64,000 bases of DNA. Source: Klenkia taihuensis (GTDB lineage Bacteria; Actinomycetota; Actinomycetes; Mycobacteriales; Geodermatophilaceae). The stretch covers positions 1,116,001-1,180,000 of the forward strand of contig NZ_FOMD01000001.1 in the NCBI RefSeq assembly GCF_900112525.1. The letters run 5' to 3'. This document shows, piece after piece, positions 1,306 to 2,579 of the stretch. Each line of letters begins with the position of its first letter. Positions within the stretch are counted from its first letter, which is position 1. The notes beneath the pieces were generated by a model. It was not told the DNA's origin. It searched no databases and saw only the letters and a list, made by a program, of their open reading frames with translations. The translations under genes and the position numbers were made by a program.

Positions 1306-2043
1306 CTAGGCGGTGTGCACCACCTGGAAGGCCTCGGCGAGGCGGCCCTCGGGCAGCCGGTGCCGGGCGGCGGTCTGCCGCATCCAGCCGGTCACGAACT
1401 CCCGCAGCTGGCCCTCGGGCTGGTGCGCGACCTGGGTGACGTGCGACTCCAGCGCGGCGAACTTCCGCTCGACCACGTCGGTGACGTCGACGGCGTGGTC
1501 GGTGCGCGGGCTGGCGCCCAGCCACACCTCGGCGACGGCCCAGGCGTCCAGGCCCTCGTCGGCGAGCAGCTCGGGGAAGGCGAAGGGGTTGCGGGCGTCG
1601 GGGTAGACCGCGCGCAGCGTGGACTCGCCGACCGTCATGTGGTCGGGGTGGCTGGCCCCGATCCGGTCGTACATCCGCTCGGGCGAGGAGGTCAGCACCC
1701 GCTGCGGGCGGACCTGCCGGATCACCCGGCTGATGTCGCGGCGCAGGTCCAGGGTGAGCTCGAGCCGGCCGTCGGGGTAGCCGAGGAACCGGACGTCGGT
1801 GACGCCGACGGCCGCCGCGGCCGCCCGCTGCTCGGCCTGCCGGAGCCGCGGCATCTCCTCGCGGGGGGTGTCGTCGAACCCGCCCGCGTCGCCGTCGGTG
1901 ACGATCAGGTAGGTGACCTCGGTGCCGGCCGCGGTCCAGGTGGCGACCGTGCCGGCGCTGCCGAAGTCGACGTCGTCGGGGTGGGCGAGCACGCACAGGG
2001 CGCGCTCGACGTGCTCGGCGGGGGGACGCTGCGGGGAGCTCAC
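1306..2043 (-). CDS. PIG-L (LmbE-like) family deacetylase
   Basis: Zinc-dependent N-acetylglucosaminyl-type deacetylase, 245 aa. The N-terminal AHPDD motif (about 19-23) and the downstream SHPDH supply the family's metal ligands and catalytic Asp. Relatives include MshB and Mca of mycothiol metabolism; at 245 aa this is shorter than typical MshB, so a different substrate is possible. The GTG start follows a TTCACT hexamer by 6 nt, preceded by TG, which suggests a leaderless transcript. It is convergent with the response regulator, 18 bp apart. Confidence 0.85.
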   Translation of the reverse strand: MSSPQRPPAEHVERALCVLAHPDDVDFGSAGTVATWTAAGTEVTYLIVTDGDAGGFDDTPREEMPRLRQAEQRAAAAAVGVTDVRFLGYPDGRLELTLDLRRDISRVIRQVRPQRVLTSSPERMYDRIGASHPDHMTVGESTLRAVYPDARNPFAFPELLADEGLDAWAVAEVWLGASPRTDHAVDVTDVVERKFAALESHVTQVAHQPEGQLREFVTGWMRQTAARHRLPEGRLAEAFQVVHTA

Positions 2044-2407: not shown

Positions 2408-2435
2408 GAACCCCGGGCTCGTGGGCCCGGGGTTC
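2408..2435 (-). terminator. Attenuator terminator hairpin before chorismate mutase
   Basis: Perfect 11-bp stem GAACCCCGGGC / GCCCGGGGTTC with a 6-nt loop, 13 nt after the stop codon of the leader ORF and about 45 nt before the chorismate mutase start. There is no U-tract, as is common for actinobacterial terminators. A CCGGGT stretch in the leader ORF could pair with the ascending arm as an antiterminator. Confidence 0.6.
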
Positions 2436-2447
2436 GTCTGTCAGTGG

Positions 2448-2510
2448 CTAGCGCTGAGGGACGGCGACCGGTACCCGGTGGCCGTAGTAAAACTCGCGCG
2501 CGCTCAGCAC
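2448..2510 (-). CDS. Candidate Phe/Tyr leader peptide of the chorismate mutase gene
   Basis: A 20-codon ORF, GTG to TAG, reading MLSAREFYYGHRVPVAVPQR. The run Phe-Tyr-Tyr (codons 7-9) names exactly the end products of the pathway whose enzyme lies 86 nt downstream. No Shine-Dalgarno precedes it, but an extended -10 (TGG-CAGACT, 2518-2526) ends 7 nt before the GTG, so the mRNA probably begins at the start codon. A hairpin inside the ORF and a terminator-like hairpin after it complete a classical attenuator. The assignment is inference from layout, not from homology. Confidence 0.7.
   Translation of the reverse strand: MLSAREFYYGHRVPVAVPQR
2463..2483 (-). promoter_or_regulatory. Pause (1:2-type) hairpin of the attenuator
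   Basis: On the minus strand GGCCACCGG-GTA-CCGGTCGCC folds into a 9-bp stem with one C-C mismatch and a 3-nt loop. It starts directly after the two Tyr codons of the leader ORF, so a ribosome waiting for charged Phe- or Tyr-tRNA would open it. That is the expected position of the pause hairpin in ribosome-mediated attenuation. Confidence 0.5.
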
Positions 2511-2579
2511 GGAGGGGAGTCTGCCACACCTCGCGGCCCCGGGGGAATGTCGGTGCCGGCGCCTAAGCTCGACGTCGTC

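Follow-up and report, generated by a model that had tools for sequence, protein, structure and literature searches.

Two described attenuators of aromatic amino acid genes come closest to the locus presented here. The aroR leader of Corynebacterium glutamicum precedes aroF, the gene of a DAHP synthase (Neshat et al. 2014, as reported in PMC11802643 and PMC4046766), and is described as responding to Phe and not to Tyr (PMC11802643). The pheL-pheA attenuator of Escherichia coli is named in the same account (PMC11802643). Leaderless leader peptides are also known from attenuators, namely ilvL of C. glutamicum, trpL, leuL and ilvL of S. lividans, and the polycysteine uORFs of mycobacteria (PMC11857589, PMC8079986; the reports of Canestrari 2020 and Morbach 2000 enter through the papers that cite them). 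In the parts of these sources that were covered, none of the eight leader peptides in the S. lividans list lies at a chorismate mutase (CM) gene (PMC8079986), and a comparative survey of 2005 reports no conserved RNA structure upstream of Phe/Tyr operons in Actinobacteria (PMC1262725). Within the sections covered, no CM leader is described in PMC4046766, PMC5784534, PMC11802643, PMC13236596 (its figure of predicted attenuated genes aside), PMC9094748, PMC4633059, PMC6437058, PMC11857589 or PMC11109978. At the level of titles and abstract openings, with supplementary tables outside the scope and an earlier mention possible there, a CM leader is undescribed in the literature searched.

Such a leader stands in the window, by which we mean the whole analysed stretch of 64,000 nucleotides from Klenkia taihuensis (Geodermatophilaceae). 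We read it as a ribosome-mediated transcription attenuator in which CM synthesis depends on how much charged Phe-tRNA and Tyr-tRNA is available, and consider this reading very likely to be correct. Its features are:

2528-2518, minus strand: extended -10 promoter element, TGTGG + CAGACT, as read in the sequence
2510-2448, minus strand: leader peptide ORF of 20 codons, GTG to TAG, VLSAREFYYGHRVPVAVPQR
2492-2484, minus strand: control codons TTT TAC TAC, encoding Phe7 Tyr8 Tyr9 (codons 7-9)
2485-2461, minus strand: hairpin 1:2 (anti-antiterminator), 10/11 pairs with one C-C mismatch, loop 2474-2472
2471-2460, minus strand: segment 2, CCGGTCGCCGTC, the 3' side of hairpin 1:2 and 5' side of the proposed antiterminator
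2438-2427, minus strand: segment 3, GACGAACCCCGG, proposed antiterminator partner, overlapping the 5' arm of the terminator
2435-2408, minus strand: hairpin 3:4, terminator-like, GAACCCCGGGC/GCCCGGGGTTC, 11/11 pairs, 6-nt loop
2374-2369, minus strand: AGGAGG, the CM ribosome site, 6 nt 5' of the CM ATG and downstream of the terminator
2362-2090, minus strand: CM, 90 aa, Pfam CM_2, E 2.7e-11

The leader GTG (2510-2508, minus strand) follows the extended -10 after a spacer of 7 nt. Hairpin 1:2 opens within the Tyr9 codon, at its second base. Between the leader stop codon and hairpin 3:4 lie 12 nt, and the 3' tail of hairpin 3:4, CTTCGTCT, has only a modest T content (4/8). The elements listed in the original prediction (extended -10, ORF, FYY codons and two hairpins) are all present in the sequence. 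Its perfect 11-bp hairpin past the stop codon is there too, at 12 nt rather than the 13 nt given, and the hairpin placed right after the Tyr codons exists with a start that falls inside the Tyr9 codon. Against the covariance models of Rfam 15, neither the window nor 20 loci gave a match above the gathering score; at E values up to 1 the sole match within 2380-2560 was RF02657, which at 17.2 of 61 bits is far below its cut-off.

The Klenkia taihuensis genome contains one match to the CM protein of the window. The plus-strand gene from 2580 we take to be a helicase, uvrD-like going by its sequence. An ORF at 1306-2043 (minus strand), 46 nt behind CM, may share the CM transcript; from a motif it presumably resembles a deacetylase of the PIG-L/LmbE type. 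By eye, positions 2414-2406 in the 3' arm of the terminator are complementary to 2371-2363 (AGGAACCCC), which overlaps the CM ribosome site; most relatives apparently do not have this pairing, again by eye, and it was taken as chance.

The search within the family used the CM protein alone and disregarded the leader. It gave 63 loci, made up of 61 from Geodermatophilaceae, one from a Mycobacteriales MAG (L063) and a partial cyanobacterial match of 42 residues (L064), which was excluded from the leader count. The leader lies upstream of CM in all 61 other Geodermatophilaceae loci and also in L063. Chance origin of the leader is excluded because it is conserved in 61/61 family loci that were selected by CM. 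Phe7 and Tyr9 are invariant in 71/71 distinct family leaders, some of them found through the motif itself, and the 61 CM-selected loci agree. Position 8 is variable in the 71 leaders (Y 39, S 13, F 11, A 5, P 3), of which 21 contain just two Phe/Tyr residues. Beyond the control codons, the residues G, R, P, V and V hardly vary among the Geodermatophilaceae.

Beyond the family, the pattern FxYG[HY]RxPV matched once each in 42 of the 200 genomes from the order, including 27 of the 28 genomes of the family itself, while the reversed pattern used as a control matched 1 of 200. CM lies downstream on the same strand at each of the 43 motif-found loci (27 from the family and 16 others, all among the 132 leader rows). 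A motif search selects for the motif, and CM genes were therefore also taken from 32 genomes without it. All 32 have CM, and the leader is present at 26 of the 30 loci read (weak at L130); at the remaining four CM loci, L132, L134, L137 and L139 of family f8, no leader was found. At L137 a short ORF with a single Phe follows a -10-like hexamer, by eye. CM matches without a locus were left out (five from the motif-less genomes and three from a further sample of 30 genomes). Among 30 genomes of the class, seven had a CM-like match: the leader is present at L144 and L146 and doubtful at L145, and four weak matches have no leader.

The further sample for the CM leader comprised 30 genomes, one of them repeated. 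In Mycobacterium-like genomes (f8 g14; the genus is inferred) the leader precedes CM in 12 of 13 and is of the type RF[FSP]YGY..AVPV; in Streptomyces-like genomes (f31; genus likewise inferred) it does so in 13 of 13, mostly as the type F.FTYG...GCHGRAA. Three Mycobacterium-like leaders (L154, L157, L164) are extended at the N-terminus to 28-34 aa with a similar core. In the further sample the f8 CM loci lacking the leader are L168 and L177, and the 2.3-Mb f8 genome G522 is among the genomes without one; at three f30 CM loci of that sample the leader is doubtful. L145, L178 and L179 (f30) were treated as doubtful and left out of the leader counts. Clear CM leaders occur in 17 families (f1-f5, f7-f13, f15, f16, f26, f31, f46).

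A broadened pattern matched 9 of 393 genomes class-wide and its reversed control two genomes; six of the nine matches were rejected by eye as coding sequence, and the leaders are those of the own genome, G016 and G270. Model R1 found matches in 32 of the 296 phylum genomes, 8 of them f31. At 16 weaker R1 loci (14 outside the class; L227 and L228 within) there is no CM within 2.3-3.1 kb; nine are aromatic leaders of other kinds, and the remaining seven resemble hairpins formed by chance.

The 132 leader rows reduce to 114 distinct leaders, with the window represented by its copy L086, L063 being the same as L129, and L114 not entered. A [TC]AnnnT hexamer precedes the start codon by 6-7 nt in 71/71 distinct family leaders and in 29 of the 43 others, the remaining 14 having none at that distance, and at shifted control positions it occurs in 0.4% and 1.2%. 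The start codons for this count were picked partly by the -10 score; when the 3'-most in-frame start is taken regardless of the -10, the hexamer is found at 6-7 nt in 65/71 family leaders and 26/43 others. A further 25 Mycobacterium- and Streptomyces-like leaders were pre-filtered for at least two Phe/Tyr residues and a -10 at 6-7 nt, and because they were filtered on the -10 distance they carry no weight in the spacing statistics. Of the 114 distinct leaders, 110 have a C immediately 5' of the start codon, and C followed by G or A is the usual pyrimidine-purine dinucleotide of transcription starts. The -10 spacing and the C at -1 fit a transcript whose 5' end is the first nucleotide of the start codon, and with this presumed start the leader transcript would have no room for a ribosome site. 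As far as the comparison of leaders goes, the probable leaderless initiation, known from other actinobacterial attenuators too, is conserved here as part of the leader design.

RNA pairing hardly explains the constancy of Phe and Tyr, because these codons lie 5' of hairpin 1:2 or just reach its base. The Phe codon is TTT in 68 of 87 cases in family leaders compared with 49 of 830 in the longest ORFs nearby, and outside the family in 54 of 89 leader codons compared with 59 of 426 in neighbouring ORFs; since the sequences are related, the p-values of this codon bias are not to be read literally. The Tyr codons of the leaders show no such bias. Trp occurs in only 5 of 139 CM leaders (the 114 distinct leaders and the 25 pre-filtered ones), Phe and Tyr being the norm. 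By contrast, type-I DAHP synthase genes in the class have a leader at 12 of the 14 read, and 12/12 of these leaders contain Trp, Phe and Tyr. The comparison of CM with type-I DAHP synthase indicates that the leader residues match the pathway place of the downstream enzyme. In 11 of the 12 type-I DAHP synthase leaders TAnnnT stands 6-7 nt before the start codon.

The leaders of type-I DAHP synthase (L182-L186, L194-L200) make up a second leader family, with the types YWRFIEAPGG, YFWF, YRWF and YYWF. None was found at the type-I DAHP synthase loci L201 and L202, the latter from the own genome, where a script found no such leader upstream of type-I DAHP synthase and inspection by eye found none upstream of type-II DAHP synthase and prephenate dehydratase. 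A shift of control to type-I DAHP synthase in f8 genomes without a CM leader was considered and dropped, being clean in seven genomes and not strict. Five f8 genomes without a CM leader have type-I DAHP synthase with a leader before it, G123 has a CM leader and no type-I DAHP synthase, and G522 has neither. Five of the 12 Mycobacterium-like genomes with a CM leader also have type-I DAHP synthase, four of the five with a YWRF leader.

Elsewhere in the phylum, outside the class, DAHP synthase is preceded by leaders of which MRHVFGDWFFYGGRGPA and MKRYFWFFGTSGSPEADAS are examples (L214, L217-L219, L221-L223, L229). The identity of the downstream enzyme is confirmed by Pfam at L214, L218, L221, L223 and L229, judged by the N-terminus only at L217, and putative at L219 and L222. 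At L226 a WFW leader stands before anthranilate synthase. It is an even call whether Actinobacteria have in common an old set of leaderless aromatic leaders in which the residues name the guarded branch (Trp, Phe and Tyr for type-I DAHP synthase, Phe and Tyr for CM, Trp for trpE) and in which the gate that bears the device varies by lineage, the CM leader being the Phe/Tyr gate in most larger lineages of the class.

Covariation of the stems was assessed on the alignment A1, whose 40 sequences are diverse and which left out 16 f8/f31 loci and L144 from the 57 prepared; seven harder leaders (L103, L115, L116, L123, L130, L133, L146) had previously been left out of it. Among 103 leaders with a common geometry, 93% of the cells at the ten positions of hairpin 1:2 are paired, compared with 30-53% in slid versions, and one of the ten positions is paired in only 54/103 leaders. 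On A1 the corresponding values are 92.0% and 25-45%. A1 contains 26 double-changed cells in this hairpin compared with 9.3 in shuffles, a count that 0/500 shuffles reached, and four pairs with a double change, a number matched by 75/500 shuffles. By this comparison hairpin 1:2 is strongly supported. For hairpin 3:4, 83.1% of cells are paired on A1 (slid 22-64%), 6/500 shuffles reached the covariation score and 327/500 the count of double-changed pairs, which amounts to modest covariation. A terminator-like hairpin 3:4 upstream of CM is conserved among the leaders. The 8-nt terminator tail holds a mean of 3.65 T in the family and 3.7 elsewhere and is thus only moderately U-rich, and in four Mycobacterium-like loci (L158, L160-L162) a simple search for hairpins returned no clear terminator. 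RNAalifold unaided recovers most pairs of hairpin 1:2 and the core of hairpin 3:4.

The antiterminator 2:3 is the most weakly supported element. On A1 74.1% of its cells are paired (slid 28-52%), with a score reached by 49/500 shuffles. In 47 representatives the own antiterminator arms pair with -18.6 kcal/mol compared with -15.8 kcal/mol for swapped arms (p 1e-8), the own arms rank in the top tenth for only 14/47, and dinucleotide shuffles of segment 2 still form the antiterminator in 82% and 77%. The swap and slid tests speak for it better than the shuffles do, if modestly.

Comparison of the leaders shows a conserved promoter spacing, conserved Phe/Tyr codons, hairpins 1:2 and 3:4 and a constant place before CM. 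The original prediction had proposed an alignment of relatives for FYY codons and covarying stems, the absence of which would speak against it. Phe7 and Tyr9 hold throughout the family and Tyr8 does not, being replaced by S, F, A or P; hairpin 1:2 covaries (0/500 shuffles as high); and Phe/Tyr codons and stems are kept far beyond the Geodermatophilaceae, so such an absence is refuted.

The near-invariant G, R, P, V and V of the family, which recur in the AT-richer lineage L129, could also mean that YG[HY]RxPV is an arrest peptide, read in the ribosome tunnel and sensing a small molecule, with codon supply secondary. We regard this as very improbable. The ACCGG...CCGGT of hairpin 1:2 encodes [HY]RxPV and largely forces those residues, the freer positions of the hairpin covary, and L117, L119 and L144 (leaders of f13, f16 and f31) have other residues there and keep the predicted hairpin. 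The control residues, moreover, change with the pathway step catalysed by the enzyme behind the leader.

How the position of the ribosome would switch the attenuator was predicted by folding each leader through segment 3; the ribosome footprint was assumed to end 12 nt away from the A-site codon, counted from its first base. The folds covered the 114 distinct leaders, 71 of the family and 43 others. With the ribosome at the last aromatic codon, 2:3 is predicted in 69/71 family leaders and 41/43 others, and with the ribosome two codons before it in 70 and 39, respectively. With the ribosome at the stop codon, 2:3 is predicted in one family leader and four others. Without a ribosome, 1:2 is predicted in 61 family leaders and 38 others and 2:3 in 10/71 and 16/43. 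In these predictions the leaders act like a classical attenuator that terminates by default, a minority forming the antiterminator without a ribosome.

A predicted default of termination in the absence of a ribosome, together with the few control codons of many leaders, would also be expected if premature termination were constitutive or dependent on coupling, the device reporting general translation (like the whiB7 uORF) instead of Phe/Tyr. This has an equally slim chance of being right as the arrest peptide: Phe7 and Tyr9 are invariant in 71/71 although pairing hardly forces them, and the DAHP synthase I leaders add Trp. That the short conserved ORF with its own terminator-like hairpin is a small protein, with a separate CM promoter between 2408 and 2362 and an incidental adjacency, is the least credible reading and can practically be dismissed, given that at least 17 families keep the leader beside CM, that the less constrained positions of the leader show covariation in line with RNA pairing, and that a Phe/Tyr sensor would be expected to have just this composition.

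The leader of the window is real and probably a working attenuator of a known kind. For its transcription start, translation, termination and response to Phe and Tyr, we infer the following course. Transcription would start at the GTG or within a base or so, and because the transcript starts about there, the ribosome would load directly at the 5' end, with no Shine-Dalgarno site to guide it. When Phe and Tyr are ample, the ribosome would reach the stop codon and mask segment 2, segment 3 would pair with segment 4, as the folding prediction suggests, and transcription would terminate at or just after 2408. When Phe or Tyr is short, the ribosome would stall at codons 7-9 and mask the 5' side of hairpin 1:2; again according to the folding prediction, 2:3 would then pair, the terminator would be blocked and the polymerase would proceed into CM. 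Without a ribosome, hairpin 1:2 would form and the terminator would be the default.

Conservation across many actinobacteria suggests a common feedback switch before the enzyme that commits chorismate to Phe/Tyr. The leader is a candidate Phe/Tyr feedback switch for a large part of the Actinobacteria, for which none was reported in the covered part of the 2005 survey (PMC1262725). The presumed leaderless initiation at a fixed distance from the promoter, kept over large evolutionary distances, may make the role of ribosome loading at the 5' end in attenuation testable. CM determines how chorismate divides between Trp and Phe/Tyr, and the leader would therefore be a handle for strain engineering.

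Among the known systems, the leaderless leaders described so far share with the CM leader a start codon at or next to the transcription start and a place before amino acid genes, while ilvL, trpL, leuL and the polycysteine uORFs differ from it in their amino acids and genes as described. The leaderless start that had been put forward as a neat solution fits the conserved promoter spacing and is not unique, being known in other actinobacterial attenuators. The aroR leader, known here by description only, is likewise an actinobacterial leader peptide (Phe-Tyr-Phe) with ribosome-mediated attenuation of an aromatic pathway gene, with the difference that it controls the first step, DAHP synthase, and not CM. 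The DAHP synthase I leaders are probably closer relatives of aroR than the CM leader is, and likely represent the wider family to which aroR belongs. The pheL-pheA attenuator of E. coli, also by description only, resembles the leader of the window in having a Phe leader before a CM gene, alternative hairpins and ribosome stalling. E. coli pheA encodes a fused mutase-dehydratase, pheL has a ribosome site and many Phe codons, and we know of no control of pheL-pheA by Tyr. Measured against the literature searched, the mechanism and leaderless leader peptides as such are already known, and the CM locus, the breadth of its distribution and the conserved leaderless design are undescribed.
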